Position numbers and translations under genes: made by a program
From: Novosphingobium sp. 9
GTDB lineage: Bacteria > Pseudomonadota > Alphaproteobacteria > Sphingomonadales > Sphingomonadaceae
Assembly: GCF_025340265.1 (NCBI RefSeq)
Contig: NZ_CP022707.1
Coordinates: forward strand, 2,232,501-2,296,500
Direction: 5' to 3'
DNA: 64,000 nucleotides
The notes under the pieces: generated by a model
What the model was told of the DNA's origin: nothing
The model's database searches: none
What the model saw: the letters and a program-made list of their open reading frames with translations, nothing else
Shown here: one piece after another, positions 23,492 to 50,387 of the stretch
How the letters are laid out: every line of letters starts with the position of its first letter
Position numbering within the stretch: the stretch's first letter is position 1

Positions 23492-26127
23492 TTCGGCAAC
23501 TCCTTCGCCTCTCCGGTCAGGGTGAAGCTGGCCCACTGGCCCGCGCCGTCACCCGGCTGGCCGCCGCCAATCCACACCTTGTAGTCGCCCGGCACCACGC
23601 GGCGAGTGCCGCGCCTGTCGACCACCGAGATGCGGCGCGGATCGAGCGTCAGCACCACCTTCGAAGACTTGCCCGGCGCCAGCTGAACGCGAGTGAAACC
23701 GGCAAGCTGGCGCTGGAGCACCGGTTCGGTCAGCATCGGCTGATGCCCATCCGACGGCGGCACCAGATAGGCCTGCACGACCTCCTCGCCCGCGCGCGCG
23801 CCGGTGTTCGAGAGCGTGACGCTGACCGTCACCGGCGAACCGGTTGTGGTCGAGCCTGCCGCCGCGCCCTGATAATCGAACGCGGTGTAGCTCAGGCCAT
23901 GGCCGAAGCGCCACAGCGGCGTGCCAGTGAAGTAGCGATAGGTCCGCTCCTTCATGCCATAATCGACGAAAGCGGGCAGATCGGTGGTGTGGCGGTAGAA
24001 CGTCACCGGCAGACGGCCCGAGGGGTTGTTCGCGCCCACCAGCGTATCGGCAACGGCGGTACCGCCCTCCTCGCCCGGATACCACGCCTCCAGCACCGCA
24101 TCGGCCATCTCGGGATCGAGCGAGACCGCACTGCCGCTGGAAAGCACCACGATCACCGGTTTGCCGGTGGCGCGCAGGGCTTTCAGCAGGTTCGCCTGCG
24201 GTTCGGGCAGTTCGATCTCGGAGCGGTCACCGCCGACGAAGCCCGGCACCTGCACCTGCAGCGCCTCGCCTTCGAGATCGGGCGAAAGACCCAGCACCGC
24301 GACCACGGCATCGGCCTGCTTCGCGGCGCTGAGCGCGCCTGCTTCCAACGCGCCCTCAGGCGGCAACCACATCAGGCGCAGGCCTTCGTCCTCGCCGTAG
24401 TGGTCCATCTCCAGCCGGATCGGCTGCGGTGTGCCGTCCGACGTAACCGTGAACTCCACCCGCTGTTTGCCGAGCGGGCCATCGTGCAATTGCTTGCCGC
24501 CCACCCACAGACGCACATCGTCGTGGCGGTGGCAGTCCTTCCAGCACTGCGGCGCATCGAGCGCGAGGCGGTAGGTTCCCGCAGCAGGCGGCACGAACGT
24601 ACCCGTCCAGCGCGCATCGAAGCGCTGCGGGTCGAGGCCTTCGGGCGCGGTACGGGTGAAGTTAAAGTCCACCCGGCGGTCCTGCCGTGCCAGCACCACC
24701 TTGCCCGCCGCATCACGGTACTCGGCGGCGAGCCCCGGCTTGCCGTTCGCGCTGAGTGCCGTCTCGGGCATCACCACCGGCGCGCCTTCGGCCAGCACCG
24801 AGCCTTGCGCATAGGTCACGTTCGCCGCGCCGAAGCGCTTGCGGATACCGTCGAGCGGCGTCACCGGATTGGCAGCGGTGCCGTGATAGTTGCCCTCCAG
24901 CACGCCGAGATCATCAGCATTGACGCCGATCACCGCCAGCTTCGCATTGGCCTTCAACGGCAGAACGCCGCCCTTGTTCTGGAGCAGGACGATGGCCTTG
25001 CGCGCGGCCTCGAGCGCCAGCGCGCGGTCGGCAGGCGTGTTGATCGCCTTGGGCGAGATCTTGCCCCACGGGTTGGGCGCGCCATAGACCACACCCAGCT
25101 TCCAGCGCGCTTCCAGCGAGCGTTCGAGCGCGGTGTTCACTTGTGCCTCGGTCAGCAGCCCGCGCGAAACTGCCTTGGGCACGCCAGCATAAGCCGTGCC
25201 GCAGTTGAAGTCCGTACCGCCCTTGATGCCCGCCGCCGAAGCCTCCGCGCTGTCGTAGGCATAGTGGTGGAACTGCCAGATGTTGCCGATCGCATCGCAG
25301 TCCGAAACGACGAAGCCTGTGAAGCCCCAGTCCTTGCGCACGGTCTGGTTCAGCAACTGGTCGCTGGCGCAGACGGGCGTGCCGTGGATCGAGTTGTACG
25401 AGCACATCAGCGAGAGGACATGACCCTGCGTCACCGCCATGCGGAACGCAGGCAGGAAGGTCGCTTCCATGTCCTGCGGGCTGGCATCGACATCGAAGCT
25501 GTCACGCCCCGCCTCGGGGCCGGAGTGCGCGACCAGATGCTTGGCGGTGGCGATCACGCGCGGGTGATCGAGATCAGGCCCCTGCAACCCGTCGATGAAG
25601 CCCACCGCAAGGCTGCCCGTCAGGAACGGGTCCTCGCCGTAGGTCTCCTGCCCACGGCCCCAGCGCGGATCGCGGAAGATGTTGATGTTGGGCGACCAGA
25701 TGGTCAGCCCTTCGTAGATACGCCGGTCGGCATCGACGGGCTTCGCATTGAACTTGGCGCGCGCCTCCGTCGAGACGACCGTGCCGACCTTCTCCATCAG
25801 CGCCGGGTCCCAGGTTGCCGCAAGGCCGATAGCCTGCGGGAACACGGTGGCGACGCCGTTGCGGGCAAGACCGTGCAGCCCTTCGCTCCACCAGTCGTAG
25901 GCAGGCAGGCCCATCGCCTTGTCGGCAGGCGCCGTGCTCTGGAGCTGCGCCGCCTTCTGGTCGAGGCTGGCCCTGGTGACGGCCGAAACCACTGCTGGCG
26001 CGATGGTTTCGGTCGGTGCTTCCTCCGCCAGCGCCGAGACGCTGCCGAGAGCGAGGACAGCGAGGCCGGAAGCCGTGGCGAGCAGGCGCGGCATGGACAT
26101 ACGGGGTATAGTCAAATGGGCAGTCAC
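23488..26127 (-). CDS. GH3 glycoside hydrolase with PA14 domain (beta-xylosidase/beta-glucosidase-like)
   Basis: About 879 residues with a Sec signal peptide (ends SALAEE). Domains in order: GH3 N-terminal barrel, with the nucleophile in [13 protein letters not shown]3 C-terminal domain interrupted by a PA14-like insert ([11 protein letters not shown] to [11 protein letters not shown]); and a fibronectin-III-like end ([23 protein letters not shown]). The SDCDAIG motif and the DFNCG segment are closest in my memory to plant-type beta-xylosidases. Because the neighbours act on N-glycans, core beta-1,2-xylose of plant glycans is a plausible substrate (inference). The GTG at 26127, with GGGAG upstream, was preferred; ATG at 26100 gives the same mature protein but has no ribosome site. 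It starts 2 bp after the mannosidase stop. Confidence 0.85.
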
Positions 26128-28729: not shown

Positions 28730-28740
28730 CGTGTCCCCCT

Positions 28741-31153
28741 TCATTGCCCCTGCTCCGACCACACCACCTTCTCGACCGAATAGAGCGGATCGGAGAGGGG
28801 CGAGGTGAACTGGAAGCACACATTGCTTTCGTCCTGCATCGCCAGGTCGGCAGGCAGGACGGCATGAACATCGAACCGCTGCGGTGCGGTTTTTGGATCG
28901 GGCAGAGCCCAGCTGGCCAGCACTTTCGCGCCGGGCAGCGGATCGTGGTGCGCGGCCTTCGGGTCCTTGGCGTTCGCCGCAGCAGCTTCCTTGCAGCCGA
29001 GCGAGGCGACCAGTTCGCCGTGGGCGCTGGTGGGATAGTGCGTCGCTTGCGTCCACACATCATGCGCCAGCCCGAAGTTGCGCGGAATGCGCGCGATCGA
29101 GACCGTCACCGCCTTGGCATGGGCCAGCGGCGCGTGATCGTCGGCCTGACACGGATCGAAGATGTTGATGTTGTAGGCAGGGCCGTTCGTCGTCGCATCG
29201 GCATCGAGCGGCAGGCGCAGCCACAGCGACTGGCCGGGACAGGCCGCAAGCTGGCCGTTGGTCGTGGTCAGCAGCGCCTCGCGAGAGGTATCGAAACGGC
29301 GCGGCGCCGCCAGCATCGCGCCATCGGGCGCAAAGCTGCTGGCGGTCACGACCAAGCCGGACTTCACCGAAAGCGCGCCGGTATAGAGCTTGGACTTCGC
29401 GGTCGGCGCGGTCCCGTCGAGCGTATAGCGGATCGCTCCGAACGGCGCCTGCGTCGCCAGCGTCACGCCGACCTTGGGGGCGCCCAGCGCAACACCGCGC
29501 GACTGCGTGGTCGCGAAGGTCACGGCAAAAGCGCTGTCGGCCACTTCGACGCCCGCCTGCTTCCAGCGGCGAATCTGCGGCTCCAGCCTTGCCAGGAAGC
29601 CGGGATAGTCCTTCGCGCCTTCCACCTTCGGCGACCAGCCATCCTCGGCCACGGCGCCCGCGCGGGGAAACAGCTTGTGCTGCATCTGCCAGGGCGTGAC
29701 GAGGTATTCGCTCCAGGCATTGGCCTGCACGCCCATCACATGTCCCGCCTTCGCCGGATCGATCCCTTGGGCATCGGGTCGTAGCGATAGACGCTCTCCA
29801 GCGTCTGGACGAAGCCGCGCCCGGCCGGACCATCGCCCAGCGTCGACTGGCGGTTGTCGAAATAGAGGTTGGGCGATGGCGAGAGCACCACGTCGTGCCC
29901 GGCGTTGGCAGCGTCGATCGCGCCCTGCTCGCCGCGCCAGCTCATCACCGAGGCAGACGGCGGCACCCCGCCTTCGAGTATCTCGTCCCAGCCGATCAGG
30001 CGACGGTCATGCTTTGCCAGATACTGGCCAAGCTGCTCGATCATCCAGCTCTGCATGGCATTCTCGGTCTTGATGCCGAGCGCGCGCATCTGCGCCTGCA
30101 CGGCGGGCGAACGCTCCCACTGGTCCTTGACCGCCTCGTCACCGCCAAGGTGGATGAAGGTGGAAGGGAACACCGCCATCAGTTCGTCGAGCACGTTCTC
30201 GACGAACTCCATGCCCTCGGGGCCGGGATTGAACAGGTAGGGATTGATGCCCCAGTCATGCGAGACTTCCGTGGGCGATTGCAGGATGCCAAGCTCGGGA
30301 TAGGCCGCGACCAGCGCCTGAGCATGCCCCGGCAGGTCGATCTCGGGCAGGATCGTGATGCCGCGATCCGCCGCATAGGCGACCAGCGCCTTTAATTGAT
30401 CCTGCGTATAGAAGCCGCCCACGCGCGGACCTTCGCCATGCCCGCTGTCCGAACCATTGCGCCATGCACCTACTTCCGTGAGCTTCGGATAGCGCTTCAC
30501 CTCGAAGCGCCAGCCCTGATCGTCGGTCAGATGCAGGTGCAGGACATTGAGCTTCACATCGACCATCTGGTCGACCACGGCATAGAGTGATTCGATCGGC
30601 TGAAAATGCCGCGCCGTATCGATCATCAGACCGCGCCAGCCAAAGCGCGGGCATCGTCGATGACGACCGAGGGTACCCGTGCAGGCGCTCCATCGCCGCT
30701 GCCCAGCAACTGATCGAGCGTCATCGCGCCATAGACCAGCCCCTGCGCACCCGAAGCCGCAATGGTCGCGCCCTGCGGCGTCACGGTCAGGCGATAGGCC
30801 TCCGCCCCCTTGATCGCGGGATCGCGCACGAAGCGGATCTTGCCGGTCGAATTTTCGGAGACAACGAAAGTCAGCCCGCGCTCGGATTTGGCGCGGTCGG
30901 CGAGCAGTTGCGCAGCGGTCTTTGCCTCATGATCGCCGCCGGGGACTTGCAGCACCGTGCCCGAGGTCAGCGTCAGCACACCCGATGCACGCTCGACCGA
31001 AGCCGGATAAGGCACCAGCGGCAGAACCTGCCCGGCAGCGGCAGGATTTGCGAAGGCCGTGCCACAACTCACTACCGACAGCGCCGCCCCGGCCAGAAGT
31101 GCCAGCCTGCGTGCGCCTTTACCGCCGAAACCGGCAATCGCCCCTTGTGTCAT
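28741..31153 (-). CDS. Beta-N-acetylhexosaminidase (GH20); frame broken twice
   Basis: First gene of the glycosidase operon; removes terminal beta-GlcNAc. Repaired length ~804 residues. As given, it is split into segments 31153-30626, 30626-29736 and 29739-28741 by base losses at 30649-30651 and 29764-29766 (short G/C runs). Restoring one base at each yields SVVIDDAPRFGWRGLMID and PMPKGIDPAKAGHVMG, both family-typical. Parts: signal region with RR and a possible lipobox (VVSC), GH20b domain, GH20 barrel with HLTDDQGWR and the catalytic HLGGDEAV, a chitobiase C-terminal-like domain, and an extra C-terminal ~170 residues I do not recognise. The start ATG at 31153 faces the GntR gene across a 198-bp control region. 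Confidence 0.88.
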
Positions 31154-31351: not shown

Positions 31352-32089
31352 ATGGCATTTTCCGACCGTATCGGGTCGTTGCGCGCTGACAATGCGGCAC
31401 CGCTCTACCTGCAGCTTCAGCAGCTGATCCGGGACGCCATCGCTGGCGCCGTGCTCCAGCAGGGTGAAGCGATCCCGCCCGAGCGCGACCTTGCTGCCGA
31501 GTACGAAGTCTCGCGCATCACGGTGCGCAAGGCGATCGGCGGGCTGGTCGAGGAAGGCATGCTGACGCGCCGGCGGGGGGCCGGTACGTTCGTGGCCTCG
31601 CGCGTGGAAAAGAGCTTCTCCAAGCTCACCTCTTTCAGCGAGGACATGGCCGCCCGCGGGCGCCTGGCCTCCAGCAGCTGGGTCTCGCGCAGCAGCGGTC
31701 CGGTCGGCCCGGACGAGGCCATGGCTCTGGGCCTTGCGCCCGGCAGCACTGTCTTGCGCTTCACGCGTATCCGCTATGCCGACGATGTGCCGCTGGCGCT
31801 CGAATACTCGACACTCGCCAGCTTCTGCCTCCCCAGCGTCGATGCGGTCGATGATTCGCTTTATGCCGCGCTCGACAAGGCCGGGCATCGCCCGGTGCGT
31901 GCCCTCCAGCGCCTGCGTGCCGTGCCCTTCGGCGGAGAGCAGGCGCGCCGCCTTGGCGTCGATACCGGCCACGCGGGGCTGCTCATCGAACGCCACGGAT
32001 TCCTGCGCGATGGCCGCGCGGTCGAATTCACCCGCTCCTACTATCGCGGCGATTCGTATGATTTCGTCGCCGAACTGACGGACATGTGA
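31352..32089 (+). CDS. GntR-family (HutC/UTRA) transcriptional regulator, NagR-like
   Basis: 245 residues. The N-terminal winged-helix domain (QQLIRDAIAGAVLQQGEAIPPERDLAAEYEVSR-type core, then TVRKAIGGLVEEGML) is followed by a UTRA effector domain (SFSEDMAARGR... LLIERHGFLRDGRAVEFTRSYYRGDSYDF). UTRA proteins of this group commonly sense sugar phosphates such as GlcN-6-P or GlcNAc-6-P (family knowledge). The ATG at 31352 has GAGG six bases upstream. It is divergent from the GH20 operon and overlaps the start of the beta-galactosidase (TGATG). It is the only regulator within the carbohydrate locus, hence the likely controller of both glycosidase and nag genes. Confidence 0.9.
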   Translation: MAFSDRIGSLRADNAAPLYLQLQQLIRDAIAGAVLQQGEAIPPERDLAAEYEVSRITVRKAIGGLVEEGMLTRRRGAGTFVASRVEKSFSKLTSFSEDMAARGRLASSSWVSRSSGPVGPDEAMALGLAPGSTVLRFTRIRYADDVPLALEYSTLASFCLPSVDAVDDSLYAALDKAGHRPVRALQRLRAVPFGGEQARRLGVDTGHAGLLIERHGFLRDGRAVEFTRSYYRGDSYDFVAELTDM

Positions 32090-35001
32090 TGAAGCGGCGC
32101 TCGGTCCTTCTCGGCGGCGCCCAGCTTGGCGCCACGCTGGCCTTCGCAGGCGAACTGGTCTCCCCCACGCAGGCGGCGAAGACGGCACCTTTCGGTCCCG
32201 GCGAAGCAGACGGCCTGCCGATGCCGCCGCCCGAGCCCGGCGCCACGCCGCGCCTGCCCGAAAGCGACCCATCACGCACGCTGATGGAGCACGGCTGGCG
32301 CTTCCACGAAGGCGACGTGCCCTTCCCCGAACCGGCCGACCACAATGCCACGTACCTCTCGGTAAAGGCCGGAAACGCCACGGGCGCCGCCTCCTTCGCG
32401 TTCGACGATTCGGACTGGCAGGAAGTCACGCTTCCGCACGACTGGGCCAGTTTTCAGGACGTCACCGAAAGCGCCAACGTTTCCGAAGGCTATCGCCGGC
32501 GTGGAATCGGCTGGTATCGTCGCCTGCTGAAGCTCGATCCTTCGCAAAAGGGCCGCAAACTCGAACTCCATTTCGACGCGATCGCCACGCACGCGACCAT
32601 CTGGGTCAACGGCAGCGAAGTCGCGCATTCGTGGTCGGGCTATACCGGCACCATCGTCGATCTGACGCCGTTCGCGCGTTATGGCGACGATCTCAACTGG
32701 ATCGCCGTCCGCGTGGACGCCACCGCCCGCGAAGGCTGGTGGTACGAGGGCGCAGGGCTGTATCGCCACGTCTGGCTGGTAAGCCGCGCGCCGGTTTCGA
32801 TCGCGACGGACGGTGTCCATTGCCACCCGGTGCAGCAGGACGGCGCATGGACAGTGCCTGTCAGCGTGACGCTGGAGAACATCGAGACCGCCTCTGCCGA
32901 CGTCTCCGTCCACGCGCGCCTGCTCGATCCCGAGGGCAAGCCCGTCACCGATGGCAGCGCGTCGGCCAGCGTTCCGGTTCTGGAAAGCACGCAGGCCACC
33001 CTGAACCTCACCCCCGGTGCGGTGCGCCTGTGGTCGCCCGATGAGCCGGTGCTCTACACCGTGGAGGTCGATCTCCAGCGGGACGGCAAGGTCGTGGACA
33101 GCCGCCGCATCGCGGTAGGCTTCCGCACCCAGCGCTTCGACGCGAACGAAGGCTTCCTGCTCAACGGCACGCCGGTAAAGCTGAAAGGCGTGTGCCTGCA
33201 TCAGGACCATGCAGGCGTCGGCGTCGCCGTGCCCGATGCGCTGATGTACTGGCGGCTCCAGCGCCTCAAGGCCATGGGCTGCAATGCCATCCGCATGTCG
33301 CACAATGCCGCCGCAGCAGAACTGCTCGACTGGTGCGACCGGCTCGGCTTCCTTGTGATGGCGGAAAACCGGCTGTTCGATCCCGCGCCCGATTACATAG
33401 CGCAGCTCAAATGGATGGTGCGGCGCGATCGCAACCACCCCTCGATCATCCTATGGTCGGTGTTCAACGAAGAACCGATGCAAGGCACCCATGCCGGTGT
33501 CGAGATGGTGCGCCGGATGCGCGCTGCCGTGCGCAAGCTGGATACCGAGCGCCCCGTCACCGGCGCGATGAACGGCTCGTTCTACAATCCCGAGAATGTC
33601 GGCGGCGTGCTCGATGTCATGGGGTTCAACTACTATCAGGCGGACTACGACAAGGTCCACGCGATGTACCCGGAGCGGCTGCTGACCAGTTCCGAGGACA
33701 CCAGCGCCTACGAGACGCGCGGCGCCTTCGCCAGCGTGCCGCAGGCGCATGTCGTCACCTCGCTGGACAAGGAAGCTGCCTCGTGGGGTGCCACGCACCG
33801 CGAGACGTGGCGCGAAATCGCCTCGCGCCCGTTCATTGCGGGCGGCTTTGCGTGGACCGGGTTCGACTATCACGGCGAGCCTACCCCTTACGCATGGCCC
33901 ACGGTCAGCAGCTTCTTCGGCATTCTGGACCTGTGCGGCTTTCCCAAGACCGCGTTCGGCATCCGCTCTGCCCACTGGCGCGAGGATGCTCCGATGGTCT
34001 GGCTGGCGCCGCACTGGACCTGGCCGGGCCACGAAGGCAAGCTGCTGGAAGTCTTCGTGATCTCGAATGCCGAGGCGCTAAAACTGCGCCTCAACGGCAA
34101 GGTGATCGAAACCGTCGCCAAAGCCGACCGGATCATGGGCCACACCTTCAAGGTGCCTTATGAACCCGGCCGGATCGAGGCGATGGCGCTGAATGACGGC
34201 AAGGTCGTCGCCCGCGCGGTACACGAAACCGTCGGCCCGGCGGTGGCGCTGCGCCTCACCCCTTCACGCACCGCCCTTGCCAGCGATGGCGAGGACGTGA
34301 CGATGGTAACGGTCGATGCCGTTGACGCCAGAGGCCGCCATGTGCCCACGGTCAATGCGATGGCCCAGTTCACCGTATCGGGCGGCAACGTGATCGGTGT
34401 GGGCAACGGCGATCCGAACTGTCACGAAAGCGGCAAGGGTCTGAAGCGCTCGCTGTTCAACGGTCTTGCGCAAGTTATCGTGCAGGGCGGTGCCAGCGCC
34501 CAGCGCCTCGTCGTGACGGCCAAAGCGGATGGTCTCAAGCCCGCCCGCCTTCAGGTCGCGCGCGAGGCCCGCTCCGTGCGGGATCAGGTGCCCGCAATCC
34601 CTTCGCAGATGATGCTGGCCGACTGGCGCCGCTCTGCGCTGTTCGCGCAGCGTCCCGATCCTTCGATCGCGCCTGCCGATGGCGACAACAACTCGTGGGA
34701 TTTCGTCCACGCAGGCACGCCCGCCCCCAAGGGCACGGCAGGCTGGCGCGGCTACCGCACCGCGTTCACGCCATGGCGCAAGATCGGCGCGCAAGGCGGC
34801 ACCCTGCACTTTGCCTCGATCACCGGCCGTGCCGAAGTCTGGCTCGACGGCCAGAAGATCGCCACCAAGGCCCAAAGCGCTGCGGGACCGCTCGATGCGC
34901 CGGTTCCGGCGGGCAAGGACACGCGCAAGCTGCTAGTGCTGGTACAGGCCGAGGCCGATACGCCATCGGGCCTCACCGGCCCCGTTTCCCTGACGGCATA
35001 A
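32089..35001 (+). CDS. Beta-galactosidase-type GH2 glycoside hydrolase
   Basis: 970 residues with a Tat-like N-terminus (MKRRSVLLGG). GH2 sugar-binding domain (RRGIGWYRRLLKL, FDAIATHATIWVNG), Ig-like domain, and TIM barrel with RRDRNHPSIILWSVFNEEP carrying the acid/base Glu. The nucleophile Glu is in GFAWTGFDYHGEP. Behind the barrel come a DUF4982-like and a big-loop Ig-like domain and a final jelly-roll ending at the C-terminus. These features match secreted Bacteroidetes/sphingomonad beta-galactosidases rather than LacZ. The ATG at 32089 overlaps the GntR stop (TGATG). It would remove antennary galactose in glycan use (inference). A strong terminator follows immediately. Confidence 0.87.
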   Translation: MKRRSVLLGGAQLGATLAFAGELVSPTQAAKTAPFGPGEADGLPMPPPEPGATPRLPESDPSRTLMEHGWRFHEGDVPFPEPADHNATYLSVKAGNATGAASFAFDDSDWQEVTLPHDWASFQDVTESANVSEGYRRRGIGWYRRLLKLDPSQKGRKLELHFDAIATHATIWVNGSEVAHSWSGYTGTIVDLTPFARYGDDLNWIAVRVDATAREGWWYEGAGLYRHVWLVSRAPVSIATDGVHCHPVQQDGAWTVPVSVTLENIETASADVSVHARLLDPEGKPVTDGSASASVPVLESTQATLNLTPGAVRLWSPDEPVLYTVEVDLQRDGKVVDSRRIAVGFRTQRFDANEGFLLNGTPVKLKGVCLHQDHAGVGVAVPDALMYWRLQRLKAMGCNAIRMSHNAAAAELLDWCDRLGFLVMAENRLFDPAPDYIAQLKWMVRRDRNHPSIILWSVFNEEPMQGTHAGVEMVRRMRAAVRKLDTERPVTGAMNGSFYNPENVGGVLDVMGFNYYQADYDKVHAMYPERLLTSSEDTSAYETRGAFASVPQAHVVTSLDKEAASWGATHRETWREIASRPFIAGGFAWTGFDYHGEPTPYAWPTVSSFFGILDLCGFPKTAFGIRSAHWREDAPMVWLAPHWTWPGHEGKLLEVFVISNAEALKLRLNGKVIETVAKADRIMGHTFKVPYEPGRIEAMALNDGKVVARAVHETVGPAVALRLTPSRTALASDGEDVTMVTVDAVDARGRHVPTVNAMAQFTVSGGNVIGVGNGDPNCHESGKGLKRSLFNGLAQVIVQGGASAQRLVVTAKADGLKPARLQVAREARSVRDQVPAIPSQMMLADWRRSALFAQRPDPSIAPADGDNNSWDFVHAGTPAPKGTAGWRGYRTAFTPWRKIGAQGGTLHFASITGRAEVWLDGQKIATKAQSAAGPLDAPVPAGKDTRKLLVLVQAEADTPSGLTGPVSLTA

Positions 35002-39476: not shown

Positions 39477-40613
39477 TCAGGCCGCGCGGCGACCGGCGAT
39501 CCAGGTGCCGCGCGGATAGCCTTGCGCGTCAAGCCAGGCGAAATCGGCGGCGAAACCGGGTGCGATAGTCCCGCGCTGATCCGCCATGCCCAGGAACGCC
39601 GCCGGATAGGCAGACGCCATGGCCAGGGCTTCTTCAAGCGGCAGGCCAACCATCGAGACAGTGTTGCGTACAGCGGCCGCCATGTCGAGCGAAGCGCCCG
39701 CAAGCGTGCCCTTGTCATCGACGCAGCGCCCATCTTCGACGAAAATCTCGCGACCGTCGAGGATGAAGCTGGGCTCGTCGGAGCCGACGCAGGGCATGGC
39801 ATCCGTCACCAGCACAAAGCGCTCGTGCGGACGCGAGGCCAGAGCCACGCGCAGTGCCGCCGGATGGACGTGATAGCCATCGACGATCACGCCGATCCAC
39901 GCCTCACGGTTTTCCAGCGAGGCGCCAACCATGCCCGGCTCGCGATGATGCAGTCCGGACATCGCATTATAGAGATGCGTGACGCCTGTCGCGCCAAGCT
40001 CGAACGCGCGGCGAGCGGTCTCGTAATCGGCATCGGAATGTCCGATGGCGAGGATTACCCCCGCTTCCTTGAGCGCGCGCGCCTGCTCGTCATTGAGGTA
40101 CTCGGGCGCCATGGTGAACAGCACCCGGCCCTTGCGCGGCCGGGTCAGCAGTTCGAGCATCTCGTCGTCGAGCGGCTGGAGCCGTTCCTCGGCGTGAATG
40201 CCCTTGCGCACCTTGTTCAGAACCGGGCCTTCGACATGAATGCCAAGGCAACCCGGAACCCCGGCCTCGATCGCGGCGTCCACGGCATCGAGGCCCGCAG
40301 AAATCATCTCGGGCGACCCGCTGATCAGCGTTGGCAGGATACCGGTGGCGCCGAAACGCGCGTGTGCGGCGCAGATCGCCGCGACACCTTCGACTGTGGG
40401 ATCGGTGTTGAAGAGCACGCCGCCGCCGCCGTTGACCTGTACGTCGATCAGCCCCGGAACCAGCATGCCGCCGTCCAGATCGACGACCTCGCCGCCCTTG
40501 CCCGCTTCGTCGATCGCGACGATGCGGCCATCCTCGCCAAAGGCGATCGAGGCGCCTTCGCGCCATTCGCCCTCGACCAGCACGCGGCCATTCTGGAAAT
40601 CGATCCGGCTCAT
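39477..40613 (-). CDS. nagA: N-acetylglucosamine-6-phosphate deacetylase
   Basis: 378 residues; converts GlcNAc-6-P to GlcN-6-P plus acetate in the cytoplasm. Metal and catalytic motifs are in place: DVQVNGGGG at the first strand, the metal-ligand Glu in HVEGPVLN, His in AIGHSDAD, His in THLYNAMSGLHHREPG, and the catalytic Asp in LVTDAMP. Length is typical. The ATG at 40613 overlaps the stop of the SIS deaminase gene (ATGA), so the pathway is made in order: PTS product to NagA to deaminase. Confidence 0.95.
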   Translation of the reverse strand: MSRIDFQNGRVLVEGEWREGASIAFGEDGRIVAIDEAGKGGEVVDLDGGMLVPGLIDVQVNGGGGVLFNTDPTVEGVAAICAAHARFGATGILPTLISGSPEMISAGLDAVDAAIEAGVPGCLGIHVEGPVLNKVRKGIHAEERLQPLDDEMLELLTRPRKGRVLFTMAPEYLNDEQARALKEAGVILAIGHSDADYETARRAFELGATGVTHLYNAMSGLHHREPGMVGASLENREAWIGVIVDGYHVHPAALRVALASRPHERFVLVTDAMPCVGSDEPSFILDGREIFVEDGRCVDDKGTLAGASLDMAAAVRNTVSMVGLPLEEALAMASAYPAAFLGMADQRGTIAPGFAADFAWLDAQGYPRGTWIAGRRAA

Positions 40614-41629
40614 CGTGTTTCGGTCACCTTGCGCAGGTGCGCGGGCGCATCGGGGTCGAACCCGCGCGCCAGCGACAGCGCATTCGCTTCCGGATAGAAC
40701 GCCTGGATCATCAGCAGCGGCTCCAGCGCCGGATGTCCGGCAAGCTGGGCGACACTGCCGCCGGGAATGTTTTCAAGAGCATCGAGACGGCGCACGGCGG
40801 CATCCCGGCGCTCGAACTCGTCAGCAGCTTCGCGCACGCTCGGACCGCCCGCATCGCTTCCGGCGAAAGCGAGGATCGGGAAACCGGCGTTGACGATCGC
40901 CATCGGGCCATGGCGCACTTCGGCAGCGCTGAAGCCCTCGGCGTGAAGACCGCAGGTCTCCTTGAGCTTGAGCGCGGCTTCCTGCGCCACCGCAAAACCG
41001 TAACCGCGACCGATGATGAACAGGTTGTTCGCGTCTTTCAGAAGGTCGACAAGACCGAACGGCACCAGCGAGCGCACGGCGGCCAGACCATCGGGCAGTC
41101 CGTTCAGCGCCGTCAGCATCGCCTCATCCTCGGACCAGTGCGCGACGATCGCGGCAAGGCCTGCAAGGGCAGCGATATAGGACTTGGTGGCCGCGACGGA
41201 CTTCTCGGGACCAGCCTTGAGCGGGACGAACACGTCCGCCATTGCCGCCAGCGGAGAGGTCTCGTCATTCACCAGCGCGACAATGCGCGCACCGGCAGCC
41301 TTGTAGGCTTCCACCGTCGCGAGCAGGTCGGGGCTGCGGCCGCTTTGCGAGATCGCGATCATCAGCGCTCCACCCGGCACGACCGGCGCTTCATACACCG
41401 ACGCCACCGAAGGCGCTGCCGATGCCACGGGAATCCCTAGCTTCGTCTCAATCATGTACTTGCCGTAGGTCGCGGCATGATCGGACGAGCCGCGTGCGCA
41501 CGTCACCACCAGCGACGGAGGAGTCTCGCGCAGCGTACGACCAAGCTCGGCCAGAACACCGGCGTTCGCCGCGAGCAGCCTGCCGACTGCTTCGGGTGCC
41601 TCAGCTGCTTCTGCCGCCATCAGAGTCAT
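40610..41629 (-). CDS. nagB: Glucosamine-6-phosphate deaminase of the SIS type (NagB-II)
   Basis: About 339 residues with two SIS domains (CARGSSDHAATYGKY, AISQSGRSPDLLA, GRGYGFAVAQEAALKLKE, GFSAAEVRHGP). In nag operons of proteobacteria lacking classical NagB, this SIS protein performs isomerisation/deamination of GlcN-6-P to fructose-6-P (family knowledge). It lacks the glutaminase domain of GlmS. ATG 41629 is preferred because GGAG lies 9 bases upstream and it gives the usual short N-terminus. In-frame starts at 41644, 41671 and 41758 would add up to 43 residues without homology. It is the first gene of the nag operon, about 140 bp downstream of the operator at 41768-41800. Confidence 0.88.
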   Translation of the reverse strand: MTLMAAEAAEAPEAVGRLLAANAGVLAELGRTLRETPPSLVVTCARGSSDHAATYGKYMIETKLGIPVASAAPSVASVYEAPVVPGGALMIAISQSGRSPDLLATVEAYKAAGARIVALVNDETSPLAAMADVFVPLKAGPEKSVAATKSYIAALAGLAAIVAHWSEDEAMLTALNGLPDGLAAVRSLVPFGLVDLLKDANNLFIIGRGYGFAVAQEAALKLKETCGLHAEGFSAAEVRHGPMAIVNAGFPILAFAGSDAGGPSVREAADEFERRDAAVRRLDALENIPGGSVAQLAGHPALEPLLMIQAFYPEANALSLARGFDPDAPAHLRKVTETR

Positions 41630-41800: not shown

Positions 41801-42528
41801 TCACGCGATTGCAGAGATGTAAGCGCGCACCCGCGCGACATCGGTTGCGCGCGGATTTCCCAGAGCAAAGCCCAGTTCGGTCAGCTTCGGCTCGACATCA
41901 CCGGCGACATCACTTCGGCAGGACGCATGAAATTCCCGGACTCCCACCGCCTGCAGCGCCGGGACCGATTCGGGCACAAGACCGCCTCCTGCCAGGATGC
42001 CCACAGCCGCTCCCGCGCGGTCCACCAGCCTGGCAAACGCAGGAACCGCATCACCCGCCCGAACCTTCCCGCCAGACGTCAGGATACGATCAAAACCGAG
42101 TGCAACAGCAGCATCAATCGCAGAAACCTGGTCATCGAGCAGGTCGAACACACGATGCAGCGTCAGACTGATGGCACTCCCCGTGCATCCGCACCCCGCC
42201 GGGCCAGATCGCCCCATGACCGCAGGACGGCAAGATCCAGCGCAGAACGATCTCCCGCGCCGATCACAATCCCGGCAGCCCCCGCCGCAACGATATCGAC
42301 AATATCGGCCGCGATCAGCGCCTTCTCCGCCTCGCTGTACACGAAGTCGCCCCCGCGCGGACGGATGAGCACATGAACCGGCAGAGGTCCTGCGACAGCA
42401 GCCCGCACCATTGCCAAGGACGGCGTGACACCACCGACTTCCAGCGCAGCGCAAAGCTCCACGCGCGCCGCGCCTCCATCATGCGCAGCGCGGACTCCCG
42501 CAAGACCATCAACACAAACTTCGAGCAT
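41801..42528 (-). CDS. cutC: CutC-family (copper homeostasis-like) TIM-barrel protein; frame broken once
   Basis: Repaired length 242 residues. The first part (42528-42163) reads MLEVCVDGLAGVRAAHDGG... LIRPRGGDF... GIVIGA. The second part, in another frame, reads SLTLHRVFDL... GFDRILTSGGK... GVREFHASC. These are the ordered CutC motifs. The break is a base missing at the C run 42179-42182 of the plus strand; five instead of four restores ADARGSAISLTLHRVFD. The ATG at 42528 has a G-rich ribosome site. CutC proteins were linked to copper tolerance but their true function is unsettled; co-location with nag genes is common in related genomes (recollection). It is upstream of the nag operon on the same strand but separated from it by the operator. 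Confidence 0.85.
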
Positions 42529-42888: not shown

Positions 42889-45597
42889 ATGGCATTTGCA
42901 CGCGCCGCGCTTCTTGCTTCCACAGCCGTCTTCGTTCTCTCCACCCCAGCCATGGCGCAGGACGCCACCGGTTCGGACCAGTCCGACAGCACCGCCGCCA
43001 ACGCCGACGTCAATCCGGCGAACAGCATCGTCGTCACCGGCATCCGCGCCTCGCTGCAGAACGCAATCAACGTGAAGCGCAACGCGAATGCCGTCGTTGA
43101 CGTCATCACCGCCGAAGGCATCGGCAAGTTCCCCGACCGCAACGTCGCCGAATCGCTGGCCCACATTCCTGGCGTCAGCGTCGACCACCAGTTCGGCATC
43201 GGCGAGCGCGTCTCGATCCAGGGCACCGACCCTGCCCTCAACCGCATCCTCGTCGACGGTCACTCGATCGCCTCGGCCGACTGGGGCGGCAACACCGGTG
43301 ACGTGACCGGCCGTACTTTCAACTATTCGCTGCTCGCCCCCGAAATCGTCTCGCAGGTCGAAGTCTACAAGTCGCCCGAGCCGTGGATCGACGAAGGCTC
43401 GCTGGGCGGCACCGTGATCGTGCGTACCCGCATGCCGCTGGACCTGAAGGCCAACACGCTGAACGGCTCGGTCGGCTACAACTACAACGACCGCTCGAAG
43501 CAGGGCAATCCGCGCGGCTCGCTGATGTACAGCTGGAAGAACGATGCCGGCACCTTTGGCATCCTCGTTGCTGGAACCTACGATGAAGATTCGCTGGCCC
43601 GCGCAGGTATCGAATACTTCGGCTACTCGACCGGTGCTGACTTCCTGACGACCGACTCAGACGGCAATACCGTCCTCAAGAACCCGAACGCGACGATCAC
43701 CGGCGGTTCGCTGAGCGACCTTGCGAACGCCCGTTACCCGGTCGGCATCAACCATGCTTACTTCAAGCAGACCCGCAAGCGCATCGGCGGCCAGTTCGCC
43801 ATGCAGTGGGCCCCCAGCAGCGACTTCGAAGTCGCGCTGACGGGCATGCACATCCAGGGCACCTACAACAACTACAGCCAGTCGGAATTCATCTACCCGA
43901 ACTGGGCCAGCAGCAACCTGACCTCGGCGACCATTTCGAACGGCCTGATCACCTCGGCCTCGTTCGCCGACGGCACGTCGACCCAGGCCGAGCTGGACAT
44001 GAACTACCGCAAGACCAAGGTCACCAACGACAGCTACAATCTGGCGACCACCTGGCACGCCAGCGACAGCTTCACGCTGACCGCCAACGGCGGCTGGACG
44101 AAGGCCACTGGCGGCACCAACCCCGAATACGACCTGACGATGTATTCGAACGGTGGCTACAGCTTCGACTACACCGGCACCTCGACCAGCGTCACGTATA
44201 ACACCGCCCCCTCGGATGCGAGCACCTTTGGCCGCACGTCGTCTTCCGAGATCACGCTGCCCGACGGCACGACGATCAACGGCTACCAGATCGGTGGTAT
44301 CGCCAGGTCGCAGCAGAAGGACGAGGAATTCTACGGCCAGTTGGACGGCAAGTGGGATGTCGATGACTCGTTCTTCAAGGACGTGCGCATGGGCGTGAAG
44401 GCCTCGACGCACGAGAACGGCACCACCGTCTACGGCTCGAAGGTCTATTACGACACACCGGTTTCGCTCTCGGATTTCGAAACCAACGCAACGCCGTCGG
44501 GCCTGTTCTCGGGCCTGAATGACAGCGGCAACGCGAACTCCTTCCAGACGCTGACCGCACAGGGCGTGATCGACGCGCTGAACGACGGCATCTACGTCGA
44601 CAGCGGCCTCGACAAGAGCTCGACCTTCCGCGTGCGTGAGAAGACCGCAGACGCCTACGTCCAGCTCGACTTCGAGACGGGTCCGATCCGCGGTAACGTC
44701 GGCTATCGTGCCGTCTACACGCAAGACATCTCGCACTATTATTCGACCACCGATGGCGGCACCACCTACACGCCAACTGTGGCCAAGAGGGACTACCTGA
44801 AGGGCCTGCCCAGCATCAACGTAAGCTGGGACATGTCGGACACGTTCAAGCTGCGCGGCTCGATTGCCGAAGTGATTGCCCGTCCGCGCTACGCCCAGCT
44901 TGCAGGTGCCTTCAGCCGCGATGATACCACGCTGACCGCCAGCTCGGGCAATCCCGATCTGAAGCCCTACCAGTCGACCAACTACGAGCTGTCGGCTGAA
45001 TGGTACTTCCGTCCGGGCGCCCTGCTTTCGGTCGAATATTTCCGCCGCGAAATCTCGTCGTATGTCGTAACCAAGACCGTTACCGAGCAGCTGACTCCGA
45101 CCGGTTCTGACAGCCCTGTCGACTATCAGGTCAGCGAGCCGGTCAACGCCTCGAACGCCACCGTGAACGGCGTGTCGCTGGCCTTCCAGATGCCGATCTG
45201 GAACGGCTTCGGCATCCTGACCAACTACACCTATGCCGATGCCAGCGCGGGTAAGGATGCGGATGGCAACGTCCTCAACCTGCCCTACCTTTCGCGCCAC
45301 ACGATCAACGTGATCCCGTACTACGAGAAGGGCGCATTCCAGGCTCGTGTCAGCTGGAACTACCGCACCCACTACTTCACCGGTGTCGGCCGCCTGAACT
45401 CGAACGACTCGACGGCGGGCTACCACCAGCTCGACGCCTCGGTTTCGTACAAGATCAGCCCGAACTTCACGATCCAGGCCAACGCGCAGAACCTGCTCGA
45501 CTCCACCTACTACTCGTACAGCGGCACCAAGTCGGCGCCGACCGCCTTCTACAAGAACGGTCGCACCTTCGCCGCCACGGCGCAGTTCAGCTTCTGA
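42889..45597 (+). CDS. TonB-dependent receptor (Xanthomonas/Caulobacter type) for glycan uptake
   Basis: 902 residues; outer-membrane gated porin. A signal peptide (ends PAMAQ) is followed by a TonB-box-like segment and the plug (IVVTGIRASLQNAINVKRNANAVVDVITAEGIGKFPDRNVAESLAHIPGVS-type region). The beta-barrel follows and ends in the C-terminal aromatic residue (AATAQFSF) needed for barrel insertion. The plug start is that of the TIGR01782-type receptors often tied to carbohydrate use. The ATG at 42889 has a GGGGG ribosome site. Substrate is inferred as a GlcNAc- or mannose-containing oligosaccharide because nag genes lie upstream and GH92 downstream. Confidence 0.92.
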   Translation: MAFARAALLASTAVFVLSTPAMAQDATGSDQSDSTAANADVNPANSIVVTGIRASLQNAINVKRNANAVVDVITAEGIGKFPDRNVAESLAHIPGVSVDHQFGIGERVSIQGTDPALNRILVDGHSIASADWGGNTGDVTGRTFNYSLLAPEIVSQVEVYKSPEPWIDEGSLGGTVIVRTRMPLDLKANTLNGSVGYNYNDRSKQGNPRGSLMYSWKNDAGTFGILVAGTYDEDSLARAGIEYFGYSTGADFLTTDSDGNTVLKNPNATITGGSLSDLANARYPVGINHAYFKQTRKRIGGQFAMQWAPSSDFEVALTGMHIQGTYNNYSQSEFIYPNWASSNLTSATISNGLITSASFADGTSTQAELDMNYRKTKVTNDSYNLATTWHASDSFTLTANGGWTKATGGTNPEYDLTMYSNGGYSFDYTGTSTSVTYNTAPSDASTFGRTSSSEITLPDGTTINGYQIGGIARSQQKDEEFYGQLDGKWDVDDSFFKDVRMGVKASTHENGTTVYGSKVYYDTPVSLSDFETNATPSGLFSGLNDSGNANSFQTLTAQGVIDALNDGIYVDSGLDKSSTFRVREKTADAYVQLDFETGPIRGNVGYRAVYTQDISHYYSTTDGGTTYTPTVAKRDYLKGLPSINVSWDMSDTFKLRGSIAEVIARPRYAQLAGAFSRDDTTLTASSGNPDLKPYQSTNYELSAEWYFRPGALLSVEYFRREISSYVVTKTVTEQLTPTGSDSPVDYQVSEPVNASNATVNGVSLAFQMPIWNGFGILTNYTYADASAGKDADGNVLNLPYLSRHTINVIPYYEKGAFQARVSWNYRTHYFTGVGRLNSNDSTAGYHQLDASVSYKISPNFTIQANAQNLLDSTYYSYSGTKSAPTAFYKNGRTFAATAQFSF

Positions 45598-45725: not shown

Positions 45726-48071
45726 ATGACCAACCTCGCCCGCCGTGCCCTGATGACCGGCACCTGTCGCCTCGCCCTTTTCGCCTCGGCCGCTCTGGCC
45801 CCTCTTCCCGCCCTGGCGCGAAAGAGTGCCTCGTCTGGCGAGGCAAAGAGCCATGGCAAGGAGATCGACCTGTTCATCGGCACCGGTGGCGACGGGCACA
45901 CCTTCCCCGGCGCCTCGATGCCGTTCGGCATGGTGCAGTTGAGCCCGGACACCGATACCGCGCGCTGGGACACCTGCTCGGGCTATCACCACGGCGATGC
46001 CTCGATCATGGGCTTCTCGCACACGCACCTGTCGGGCACCGGCATCGGCGACATGCTCGACGTGCTGGTCCAGCCATGCCGTGGCGATGTGCGCCTCGAA
46101 CCCGGCCCGCTCGACAAGCCCGATCAGGGCTATCGTCTGCGCTACACGCAGGAGCAGGCAGAGCCCGGCTACTATGCGGTCGCGCTCGAAAACGGCGTGC
46201 GCAGCGAACTGACCGTCACCGAGCGCACCGGCATCCAGCGCCACACCTTCCCCGAAGGGATCGGCCATCTGCTGATCGACCTTGCGCATCTGGTGCAGGA
46301 TTCGTCCGATCATCCGCCGCTGATCGACCAGGCACAGCTCACGCTTGAACAGGACGGCACGCTCACGGGCACCCGCCGCGTGTTCCGCTGGGCCAAGGGA
46401 CGCCGCATCTATTTCGCGATGCAGTTCTCCCGCAAGCCGACCCGGATCGACTTCTACGGCGACGACAACGCCCCTGCCAAGGCGGGCAGCGAGACCGTTT
46501 CGGGCAAGCGCCTGAAGGCCGTCGTGTGGTTTGGCGATGCGGGCAACGAGCCGGTCGTGATCCGTACCGGCATTTCGGCTGTCGATATCGCGGGCGCCAA
46601 GGCGAACCTTGCCGCCGAAGCCCCGCACTTCGATTTCGACAAGTACCGCCTGATGGCTTCGCGCGCCTGGGCAGCGGAACTGACCCGGATCGAGCTGAAG
46701 GGCGGCACCGATGCGCAGCGCCGCATCATGACAACCGCGCTCTATCACACAGCGATAGGGCCGACGCTGTTCTCCGACGTGGACGGGCGTTATGTCGGGC
46801 TGGATCGCCAGATCCACCAGCTGGGCTACGACCAGACCTCGTACAGCGCCTATTCGCTGTGGGATACCTATCGCGCGTTCCATCCGTTGCAGACGATCAT
46901 GCGCCCCGGCCTCGTGCGGCACATGGTGGCAGACCTGATCCGGCAAACGCAGCAGAGCCCTTATGGCCCGCCGGTCTGGCCGCTGCAGGGTGTCGAGACC
47001 GGCTGCATGATCGGCTGGCACGCCGTTCCGGTTCTGGCCGAAGCGCAGGCCAAGGGCATCATCGGCGACTATGCCGCCGCATGGCCAGGCATTCGCCGTC
47101 GCGCGCTAGACTTCAATATGCCCACGATGGACAACTCGCTCGGCATCCCGCGCTACGACCGCCTCGGTTATATCCCGGCAGACGAAGTGTTCGAAAGTGT
47201 CAGCCGCACGCTGGAATACAGCTACGACGACTATGCCGCCGCGAAGATCGCCAAGGCCACCGGCTTCACGGCAGATGCGGACTATCTCGCGCGACGTTCG
47301 GGCAACTGGAAGAACGTGTTCGATACCTCGCGCGGGTTCGCGGTGCCGCGCTTTGCCGATGGTTCGTTCTGGAAGGACTACGATCCGGTCCAGCTTGGCC
47401 ACGCGCCCGAAAAATGGCGCGACTATACCGAGAGCAACGGCTGGCAGGCGACGTTCCTGAACCAGCACGACGTTCCCGGTCTCGTTTCGGCAATGGGTGG
47501 CGACAAGGCGTTCGAGAAGAAGCTCGATGCGCTGTTCAACGCGCCTTCGACGCTGCCCAAGAACGCGCCGCCAGACATCTCGGGCCTTGTCGGCCAGTAC
47601 GCGCACGGCAACGAACCTTCGCACCACGTCGCCTACCTCTACGCCTGGTGCGGCGCGCACTGGAAGACGCAGGCCATGGTCCGCCGTCTGCTGACCACCA
47701 TGTACAAGGCTGACCCGGACGGCGTGATCGGCAACGACGACTGTGGGCAGATGAGCGCGTGGTTCGTGCTGTCGGCGCTCGGCTTCTATGCCGTCGATCC
47801 GGTCAGCGCCAACTACATCCTCGGCAGCCCGTTGTTCGACGAGTCCAAGCTGTTCCTCGACAACGGCAAGACGCTGATCATCGAGGCCCGCAACAACGCG
47901 CCGGACCGCCCCTATTACGGCAAGGTCGAGTGGAACGGCCAGCCGATGACGAAGTGCTGGATCAGCCACGAAGAGCTGATGAAGGGTGGCCGCCTGACCT
48001 TTCATATGCAGGCGACGCCCGACAAGAGCTTCGCCACCGCCGCTGCCGACCGGCCGCCCGTCAACGCGTGA
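45726..48071 (+). CDS. GH92 alpha-mannosidase
   Basis: 781 residues; calcium-dependent exo-alpha-mannosidase family acting mostly on alpha-1,2-linkages of high-mannose N-glycans. Family motifs: GGDGHTFPGASMPFGMVQLSPDT, GYHHGDASIMGFSHTHLSGTG, ALYHTAIGPTLFSD, YSLWDTYRAFHPL, GNEPSHHVAYLYAW and GNDDCGQMSAWFVLSALGFY. The N-terminus has a Tat/Sec-like signal (LARRALMTG, ending LPALA). The ATG at 45726 has AGGA upstream; longer in-frame readings pass through the terminator. It is followed 10 bp later by the unassigned glycosidase. Linkage specificity cannot be read from sequence alone. Confidence 0.93.
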   Translation: MTNLARRALMTGTCRLALFASAALAPLPALARKSASSGEAKSHGKEIDLFIGTGGDGHTFPGASMPFGMVQLSPDTDTARWDTCSGYHHGDASIMGFSHTHLSGTGIGDMLDVLVQPCRGDVRLEPGPLDKPDQGYRLRYTQEQAEPGYYAVALENGVRSELTVTERTGIQRHTFPEGIGHLLIDLAHLVQDSSDHPPLIDQAQLTLEQDGTLTGTRRVFRWAKGRRIYFAMQFSRKPTRIDFYGDDNAPAKAGSETVSGKRLKAVVWFGDAGNEPVVIRTGISAVDIAGAKANLAAEAPHFDFDKYRLMASRAWAAELTRIELKGGTDAQRRIMTTALYHTAIGPTLFSDVDGRYVGLDRQIHQLGYDQTSYSAYSLWDTYRAFHPLQTIMRPGLVRHMVADLIRQTQQSPYGPPVWPLQGVETGCMIGWHAVPVLAEAQAKGIIGDYAAAWPGIRRRALDFNMPTMDNSLGIPRYDRLGYIPADEVFESVSRTLEYSYDDYAAAKIAKATGFTADADYLARRSGNWKNVFDTSRGFAVPRFADGSFWKDYDPVQLGHAPEKWRDYTESNGWQATFLNQHDVPGLVSAMGGDKAFEKKLDALFNAPSTLPKNAPPDISGLVGQYAHGNEPSHHVAYLYAWCGAHWKTQAMVRRLLTTMYKADPDGVIGNDDCGQMSAWFVLSALGFYAVDPVSANYILGSPLFDESKLFLDNGKTLIIEARNNAPDRPYYGKVEWNGQPMTKCWISHEELMKGGRLTFHMQATPDKSFATAAADRPPVNA

Positions 48072-48081
48072 CCTTGCGCGC

Positions 48082-50387
48082 ATGACGGTCCGCTTAGCCG
48101 CGCTTGCCGCCGCGTCGTTTCTGGCGCTGGCGGCACCGGTCGCGCATGCCCGCACCGCGCAGGTATCGCTGGCGCACGCCTGCGTCGAGGGAAGCGGCGA
48201 TGCCGAGGCCGCCGCACACCTTCTCGCGCAGCGCCTGACCGAGCGCGGCCTCACCGGTCAGGGCGGCTGTCGCCTGACGATCCGGCTCGATGCCACCTCG
48301 GGCCTTGGCGAGGGCTACCGCATTCGCCGTGAAGGCCACGGCTTCATGGTCTCGGCCAGCCAGCGGCGCGGCTATGTCTACGCCGCCGGATGGCTGCTCT
48401 CGCACCTGCATGGCGCCATGCTCGACTGGAATGAGCCGGTTGACGAGCACCCGGCGCTTGCCGTGCGCGGCGACCAGATCGGCATTCGGGCCAAGAACAA
48501 CAGCTTTGATGCCTGGACCCCGGCCATGCTGGCGCGCCATGTCGACGATCTAGCGCTGATGGGCGCCAATCGCATCCAGCTGGTCGGCCCGGTTTCCGAC
48601 GACGCAGGCGCCTCGCCGCTGGCCCCGGTTCCGGCGATGGACGCGATCCTCGCCACCGCGCGCGAGGCCAAGGCACTGGGGCTGGAGGTCGCGCTCTACC
48701 AGCCGCTGCTGCGCGACTATGCCAAGCCCGGCGCCGATGCCGCCGAACTGGCTACCTTCACCGATCTGATCGACAGGTTCCCGGCGCTCGATGCGGTCTA
48801 TTTCCCCGGTGGAGATCCGGGCAACACGCACCCCGACATCCTGTTTCCCCTGCTGGCCAAGCTCGCGGTTCCCTTGCGTGCACGGTTTCCCAAAGCGGAA
48901 CTGCTGGTCTCGACACAAGGGTTCGACGAGGCGGGCTTCCTCGCCTTCGTGGCGCAAATCCGCAAGCGACCATCGTGGTTGTCCGCCGTGTTCGTCGGTC
49001 CGCAGACGCGGGGCTCCATCGCCCGCCATCGCGAACTGATCGACCCCTATTATCCGCTCGAACTCTACCCGACACCGCGCACGCCATGCACGCGCAACTG
49101 CCGGTCCAGCGCTGGTCGCCAGTGTTCGCGCTGACCGAGGGACGCGAGCCGGTCAATCCGCGCCCCCTCGCCACGGCTGCCGCCTTCCGCGACCAGATCC
49201 CGCAGACGCGGGGTTTCATCGCCTATTCCGAAGGCGTGAACGATGACTGGAATGTCGCCCAGTGGCTGGCGCTGAGCTGGAATCCGAGCGAAACACCCAG
49301 CGACACGGCCCTGCGCTATGCCCGCCTGTTTATCGGTGATGATCGCTTTGCCGCCATCCCCGAAGCACTTGAACGCAACTGGCACGGCGATCCGGCGGAC
49401 AATGCAGCCATTCCTGCCACCCTTCGCCAGATAGACGCGCTGCACCCCGCGCCTTGGGCCGACTGGCGCATCGACCTCTACCGCTATCGCGCCGTCTACG
49501 ATGCGCTCGACGCCCAGCGCTGGAAAAGGGCGCGTACAGCACAAGCCAAGGCCGGTCGGGCTTTACGATCCGCCTCTATGCTCGGTGCCGAAACCGCCGC
49601 ACAGCAAGCGCTCACGGCGATGTCTCCAGTTGCCACCCCCGCCGAAGCACAGCTTTACACGCGTCTGGAAACGCTCGCAGCCCGCCTGTGGCAGCATGCG
49701 CGTATGCAACTCAGCGTGACGCGATATGGTGCCTCCAACTGGGAGCGCGGCGCCAATCTCGACCGCGCGATGATCGACCTCACGGACAAGGCCGCGCTGG
49801 CCCCGCGGATCAAGGCCGCACTGGCACTTCCCGCAGAAAACAAGCGCGCGGCAGCGCTTGTTCGGCTGGGAGACCGCCCCGATGCCCGCGATCGCGCGCT
49901 CTACGACGACCTCGGAAACGCAGGGCACGAGCCACACCTCGTTACCGGCCCCGGCGAAGGAACCGATCCGCAAGGACGGCAAGGCGCAATCGACGGCGTA
50001 GCAGATCACCTCCCGCAAGACGGCTGGGCGCTTTCCGAACTCTCCTATGCGGAAGCTCTGTACGAACAGCCGCTACACCTGCGCTATACACAGCTGCCCA
50101 AGGGGCAAAGTTGGTGCTTGCGCTACACATGGGCCGGGGAAGATTACTGGCGCCCGCTGCAAATCAGCGCAGGCGGCGAAGTCATCGTACCGTTCCACAA
50201 CCGGAAGAATAATCCGGCGTTCGAACAGACCGCCATTCCGGCAGAAACCGTTCACGACGGGACACTGGACGTCACCTTCGTCTCTCCGCCCGGAGCTGGC
50301 GGTAGCGGTCGCGGCAGGCAGATCGCCGAAACCTGGCTGGTTCCCGCCGCCCCGGCACAATGTTCAGGCGAGTGGACAGGACCGTGA
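48082..50387 (+). CDS. Unassigned secreted glycosidase-like protein (GH20b/GH67N-like N-domain plus barrel); frame broken once
   Basis: Repaired length ~768 residues. A signal peptide (ends VAHA) precedes a ~95-residue domain (RLTIRLDATSGLGEGYRIRR, then GYVYAAGWLLSHL) resembling the zincin-like N-domain of GH20 and GH67 enzymes. A barrel-like region follows, with LARHVDDLALMGANRIQLVGP, VYFPGGDPGNTHPDILFPLL, ELLVSTQGFDEAGF and PYYPLELYPDTAHA. A helical region and a beta-rich C-terminal domain end the protein. I cannot place it in a named GH family. The break is one base missing near 49071; GG instead of G continues LELYPDTAHAMHAQLPVQRW. Without repair the first part stops at 49134. It follows GH92 by 10 bp, so a role in glycan degradation is likely. 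Acidic residues of GGDPGNTHP and ELYPD are candidate catalytic groups (inference). Confidence 0.7.

Follow-up and report, generated by a model that had tools for sequence, protein, structure and literature searches.

A candidate accessory glycoside hydrolase of nix-type N-glycan loci in Novosphingobium sp. 9 and its relatives

Introduction

The nix cluster of Xanthomonas (nixE to nixL) is the described system closest to the locus considered here. According to the gene table in PMC6718126, it contains fucosidase, hexosaminidase, beta-mannosidase, beta-glucosidase-type and mannosidase genes, and cutC is listed near them; the same table lists no protein like the one that is our subject, and Xanthomonas was not searched by name. 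We analysed a stretch of 64,000 nucleotides from Novosphingobium sp. 9 (contig NZ_CP022707.1, positions 2,232,501 to 2,296,500; hereafter the window), and in it the gene at 48082-50387, which we call the target gene; the target family is this gene and its homologues. As far as the available parts of PMC6718126 and PMC5700972 go, the gene set of loci with the target family resembles the Xanthomonas cluster. The loci differ from it in that the target gene is added and, in sphingomonads, in that no gene like nixF, of glycoside hydrolase (GH) family 18, was seen. Members of GH92, GH125, GH29, GH3, GH2 and GH20 all lie in the window, the GH20 gene being split; on the Xanthomonas side of this comparison, the GH numbers are in part ones that we presume.

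At the level of the protein, the closest described enzymes are the GH115 alpha-glucuronidases (BoAgu115A, 4c91), which are alike in fold at about 12% identity, and the GH20 and GH84 beta-N-acetylhexosaminidases. GH138 (BPa0997) and GH67 are similar in sequence in the N-terminal domain (N-domain). We consider it on balance probable that the target protein is an accessory glycoside hydrolase of an unassigned family in nix-type N-glycan loci, that it would act through a pair of carboxylates, and that its gene has been split by an assembly indel. More tentative, with chances a little short of even, is the proposal that the target family is a new GH family for an unrecognised N-glycan step that none of the eight Nix enzymes covers, and that its catalytic centre differs from those of GH20, GH84 and GH115.

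Results and discussion

The existence of the family, its fold in models of relatives, its linkage to the loci and its invariant carboxylates are directly supported. A protein search in which 7997 candidates were scored returned 396 proteins at E <= 0.001, and intact, unsplit relatives exist: 115 of the best 120 that were listed are 690-830 residues long. Models of two such relatives, used in place of the split window protein, contain a (beta/alpha)8 barrel like those of GH115, GH20, GH84 and GH67, with a mean predicted local distance difference test (pLDDT) score of 92-94, and their overall fold is of the GH115 type. The barrel-like region proposed in the preliminary description thus has a counterpart in these models. 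In one fold comparison the GH115 barrel comes out narrowly as the closest, whereas Foldseek ranks GH20C first for the same barrel; a viral structure library gave only weak barrel matches, the best to a GH5 protein (E 9.8e-7).

Sequence similarity to known families is concentrated in the N-domain. The proposed GH20b/GH67N-like character of this domain holds weakly: PF02838 (GH20b) scores E 0.011 in the target protein, below its cut-off, and exceeds the cut-off in relative L080. Among 31 family members searched with Pfam at E <= 0.1, GH20b appears in 17 and GH67N in 16, both in the N-domain, and four other hits, each in one member, were taken as chance. NCBIfam gave a weak alpha-galacturonidase model in 14 of the 31, covering the N-domain in the single table examined, a beta-N-acetylglucosaminidase model in 5, and one chance-like hit. 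Profile matches to the PDB at E<0.1 likewise fall in the N-domain only (GH138, GH67, GH20 and GH84 entries; GH138 6hzf, E 0.0013; 1k9d, E 2.6e-5). For the barrel, neither Pfam nor NCBIfam nor the PDB gives a sequence match at E<0.1 that we credit, GH138 and GH67 included. The same 31 members gave no match to the GH67 catalytic Pfam model, to GH115 PF15979 or to GH84 PF07555, and the barrel profile comparisons with the last two reach probabilities of 2% and 0.4%. Full-length profile comparison gives 82% for GH115 and 84% for GH20, which we put down to the N-domain because the signal is lost when the barrel alone is compared. These results support a barrel-fold, glycosidase-like protein whose catalytic domain has no Pfam or NCBIfam family, as had been suspected when the protein was said to match no recognised family. 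Of the two outcomes named beforehand as refuting this idea, a strong match to an established family and a fold lacking a barrel, neither was seen in the libraries searched, CAZy/dbCAN not being among them. In the open-licence literature we noticed no description of the target family.

Conserved residues point to a candidate active site. Conservation was counted over 187 rows within length limits, in columns filled in at least 90% of them (P0003 numbering). Asp245, Glu356, Asp388 and Asp389 are invariant (187/187 each); Asp331 is found in 186 of 186, and Glu384 in 186 of 187, the other row having Asp. In the models, Asp245 stands directly after barrel strand 4. The GH20 motif at this place is GGDE; all 187 rows have GDP (GGDP), placed by eye against the GH20 Asp-Glu pair. 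Catalysis would proceed through a carboxylate pair, with Asp245 the likeliest general acid to judge from the alignment and the base among Asp331, Glu384, Asp388 and Asp389. Because Asp245 sits after strand 4 and aligns with the presumed Asp332 of GH115, an inverting two-carboxylate mechanism appears more likely than a substrate-assisted retaining one. In the sections of PMC3879575 and PMC9063842 available to us, the alanine mutant of Asp332 of BoAgu115A is inactive, and this residue is equivalent to Asp303 of wtsAgu115A, the proposed general acid.

In Sphingomonadaceae, Caulobacteraceae, Azospirillaceae and Acidobacteriaceae, the target family is found together with GH92 and GH125. Representative genomes encode relatives at 245 places, from which 80 loci were kept for neighbour analysis. 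Within up to 10 kb of the target family gene (some loci are short contigs), GH92 occurs in 52 of these loci, GH29 in 46, GH3 in 36, beta-mannosidase GH2 in 35, GH20 in 30 and GH125 in 28. GH92 is the immediate upstream gene on the same strand in 43 of the 80, and GH29 the next gene downstream in 36. Counted by locus, six of the six core GH classes are present in 17, five in 13, four in 5, three in 9, two in 3, one in 7 and none in 26. At the level of whole genomes, 44 were searched for GH92 and GH125, the window's included, and both are present in all 38 from Proteobacteria and Acidobacteriaceae, the window's genome among them. The target family is coherent in structure and, over part of its range, associated with N-glycan loci.

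This association is met in few genomes near the window. For each genome of the window's phylum and family, the best two or four first-look candidates were scored. The target family appears in 5 of 398 genomes of the phylum at E <= 0.001, as two strong matches (the window's genome and one other) and three weak ones over the N-terminal part. In the window's family it appears in 1 of 249 genomes at E <= 1e-30, the window's own, and among near relatives in 2 of 61, the window's own included. GH125 is found in 7 of the 249, counting the window's own and one partial match. Five of the six other GH125 genomes were examined (G516 was left out); each locus has several GH92 genes and one GH125, with no nix-type GH29, GH20, GH3 or beta-mannosidase GH2, and one of the five (L094) has CutC and a glycosylasparaginase-like gene. 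A role for the target family as an accessory of mannan loci was rejected, as the GH125 loci of these five genomes, which lack the target family, are of another kind.

Given these results, we propose that the target protein would be a periplasmic or secreted glycoside hydrolase on a GH115/GH20/GH84-type scaffold, acting as an extra enzyme beside GH92, GH125, GH29, GH3, GH2 and GH20. It would hydrolyse a glycosidic bond of an N-glycan or glycopeptide from the non-reducing side, and its step would lie beyond the eight known Nix activities. Several findings weigh against this proposal. The fuller loci seem to have an enzyme for each of the usual plant N-glycan linkages already, so that an extra step is left unexplained. 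The 26 loci with no core GH class and the seven with one include five related Sphingomonas loci. A quick tree of 61 rows (near-copies and fragments left out, midpoint root, SH-aLRT support only) contains one supported branch of 19 rows, from Bryobacterales/Bryobacteraceae, Planctomycetes, Verrucomicrobia, Hydrogenedentota and a few other Acidobacteria, in which no core GH class lies near 18 of the rows and a single class lies near the other. The genomes searched for GH92 and GH125 were our own selection from the genomes that gave the 80 loci and do not form an independent sample. Finally, comparison of the barrel profile alone with GH84, GH115 and GH20 is not significant (probability <3%). The naming of catalytic residues through that alignment was accordingly dropped, and the correspondence of Asp245 with Asp332, seen at low confidence in the full-length alignment, is weak for the same reason. 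Should the proposal hold, the target family would suggest a step of N-glycan use that cannot be assigned to a characterised enzyme. Intact relatives and a confident fold put it within reach of direct tests, and glycan analysis could profit from an enzyme that cuts N-glycans in a new way.

The state of the target gene itself bears on whether this step operates in Novosphingobium sp. 9. The 2306 bases of 48082-50387 are not a single open frame: two open reading frames (ORFs) on the plus strand, ORF 1 (48082-49134, frame 1, 350 residues) and ORF 2 (48975-50387, frame 3, 470 residues), share out the homology as residues 1-329 (from 48082) and the remaining 438 (to 50387). Relative L012_6, used as a tblastn query, gave two collinear matches that join at query residue 347, one of 66% identity at 48181-49071 in frame 1 and one of 63% at 49068-50384 in frame 3, which places the switch at about 49068-49071. 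The first piece (48082..49134, with homology ending near 49071) carries a signal peptide, recognised by eye, the GH20b/GH67N-like N-domain and the barrel to about strand 7. The second, in the other frame (49071..50387, its ORF starting at 48975), carries the last part of the barrel, which includes the invariant YSEGVNDD, a helical domain and a C-terminal beta-sandwich. The preliminary description had reported one secreted protein of about 768 residues with the acidic segments GGDPGNTHP and ELYPD, beginning 10 bp after the GH92 gene. The coding region is real, GGDPGNTHP is present and the spacing is as described (GH92 stop at 48071, target start at 48082). The 768-residue protein and ELYPD, on the other hand, exist solely across the frame change, because the two ORFs are in different frames; ORF 1 reads ELYPTPRT and ORF 2 RTLPDTAH.

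The gene could be a true pseudogene in this genome, the step having been lost, and the two frames would fit this, as would the Asn at residue 248, where 179 of 187 relatives have His. We regard this as unlikely, although it survives better than the alternatives below. Of the 82 columns with at least 98% conservation across the 187 relatives, the two pieces keep 81, and the single miss is at the frame change. Moreover, 3 of the 12 locus genes probed with relatives are split, namely the target gene and CutC, with one frame change each, and GH20, with two, while GH92, GH29, GH3, both GH2 genes, GH125, the TonB receptor and the NagA-like and GlmS-like genes are each in one frame. Three further probes (c54, c55 and c56, making 15 in total; not nix genes) each gave a one-frame match. 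Elsewhere in the genome, a GH84 gene (G000:C1:561630-562585, G000 being the window's genome) also lies in two open frames. The split GH20, CutC and GH84 genes suggest many small indels in this assembly. The target gene is real, and given the split locus genes and the conserved positions kept, its split most likely reflects an assembly indel rather than old decay.

A second alternative, which we think improbable, is that the target family is a non-homologous endo-beta-N-acetylglucosaminidase (ENGase) replacing GH18 (NixF) or GH85. It takes up the earlier suggestion that the protein supplies a missing endo step. The sphingomonad loci favour it: GH18 hits in their genomes are either absent or in frames of 1,102-1,317 residues, which are probably fusions. 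We searched for GH18, GH85 and glycosylasparaginase in 40 genomes, among them that of the window, which we selected from the sources of the 80 loci, L013 excepted. GH18 in frames of <800 residues is present in 13, GH85 in 9 (four of them Sphingomonas; the G492 match is weak and overlaps a GH18 match), and a glycosylasparaginase-like gene sharing 58% identity or more with that of L012 in 22, again with the window's genome among them. At least one of the three kinds is present in 31. Caulobacter and Nitrospirillum have a GH18 of 350-363 residues in the same locus as the target family, and in Asticcacaulis its neighbours include GH85 and a glycosylasparaginase-like gene. With the four Sphingomonas genomes that have GH85, these cases speak against a simple ENGase replacement. 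Nine genomes (G455, G456, G466, G467, G477, G478, G490, G485 and G493; four Sphingobium, two Novosphingobium, and one each of Sphingomonas, Bryocella and Singulisphaera) have none of the three within these limits, PNGases not having been searched for, and because of these nine the endo idea is weakened only. The 31 family members match neither PF00704 nor PF03644, the models of GH18 and GH85 endo-beta-N-acetylglucosaminidases. The window's genome has a glycosylasparaginase-like gene (G000:C2:129485-130483, 76% identical to that of L012), which with GH20 would allow an exo-only route. PNGase H+ of Terriglobus is a PNGase A homologue, according to the accessible part of PMC7348039; an identity of the target family with it was set aside, there being no PNGase A-type Pfam match in the 31 members. 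Removal of alpha-1,3-mannose, also suggested earlier, is not supported; the alpha-1,3-mannosidase of Xanthomonas is a GH92 in the portion of PMC10154615 available.

Still less probable is a GH115-related, glycuronidase-like enzyme that removes an acidic sugar, the nix version acting on acidic N-glycans such as those of invertebrates or algae. The small margin by which GH115 is the closest barrel speaks for it, although not the first rank of GH20C in Foldseek. Neighbours of some members in Acidobacteria and Planctomycetes also speak for it: DapA-family (6 of 80 loci) and HpcH/HpaI aldolases, IclR or GntR regulators and a cluster of major facilitator superfamily (MFS) transporters nearest TIGR00893 (D-galactonate; below cut-off) in 7 of 80. 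These neighbours, however, fit non-phosphorylative fucose or xylose catabolism as well, and the carboxylate-binding Tyr420/His422 that the available text of PMC3879575 gives for GH115 could not be matched in the target family.

A beta-N-acetylhexosaminidase diverged from GH20 or GH84, structures of which (GH20C and GH84) stand near the top of PDB fold searches, is the least probable alternative: many loci already have GH20, the 31 members show no match to PF00728, the GH20 catalytic model, or to PF07555 at E 0.1, and in place of a DE/DD pair the family has GDP throughout, with Pro where GH20 has the acid/base Glu (by eye).

ORF calling in high-GC DNA used a codon score, from which start positions are uncertain. 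Turning to the genes around the target gene, on the plus strand lie the GH92 alpha-mannosidase (45726..48071; PF07971, E 6.9e-158; one frame, 77% identical to L012; the ORF may begin at 45615), a TonB-dependent receptor (42889..45597; PF00593, E 5.9e-41; one frame) and a beta-galactosidase-type GH2 (32089..35001; one frame, 64% to L013, with Pfam from that relative). The minus strand carries a CutC-family gene in two frames (41801..42528; two pieces, 56% to L012; PF03932 in a relative) and, named by eye, a GlmS/NagB-II-like sugar isomerase-domain gene (40610..41629; one frame, 78% to L012) and an N-acetylglucosamine-6-phosphate deacetylase-like (NagA) gene (39477..40613; one frame, 74% to L012). 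Also on this strand are the GH20 beta-hexosaminidase in three frames (28753..31072) and the GH125 alpha-mannosidase (22001..23491; one frame), and three one-frame genes with Pfam from relatives: a beta-mannosidase-type GH2 (26129..28744), GH3 (23488..26094) and the GH29 alpha-fucosidase (20031..21962; 77% to L046). By eye, sensor kinase ORFs at 16283-17655 and hybrid kinase ORFs at 53717-56829, overlapping in different frames, are possible further split genes, and the minus strand at 3167-13658 holds large, repetitive, surface-protein-like ORFs, the longest of 2307 residues.

In the 80 loci, CutC is found in 18 and a glycosylasparaginase-like gene (Pfam Asparaginase_2; the finer name by eye) in 13, and of the 30 loci with one or the other a single one has both, kinship being uncontrolled. 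CutC may have a role in N-acetylglucosamine or N-glycan use rather than with copper. In three Novosphingobium genomes (at L010:12447-14795 and at the corresponding positions of L011 and L013), a protein of 782-791 residues follows the target family gene; the L010 copy has no Pfam or NCBIfam match.

In the distant branch of 19 rows, 6 have a neighbour from the MFS or the DapA cluster, and HpcH/HpaI aldolase, IclR and GntR genes also occur. Among six distant-clade genomes searched, GH125 is present in two and GH92 in one. The residues at the strand ends are nearly identical in this clade, and so its members may take the same sugar into the active site, but from a different glycan. Three acidobacterial loci (L073, L079 and L080) have two copies of the target family each; close by lie aldolases, a transporter of the sugar-acid type or an IclR regulator, which could reflect a second class of substrate.
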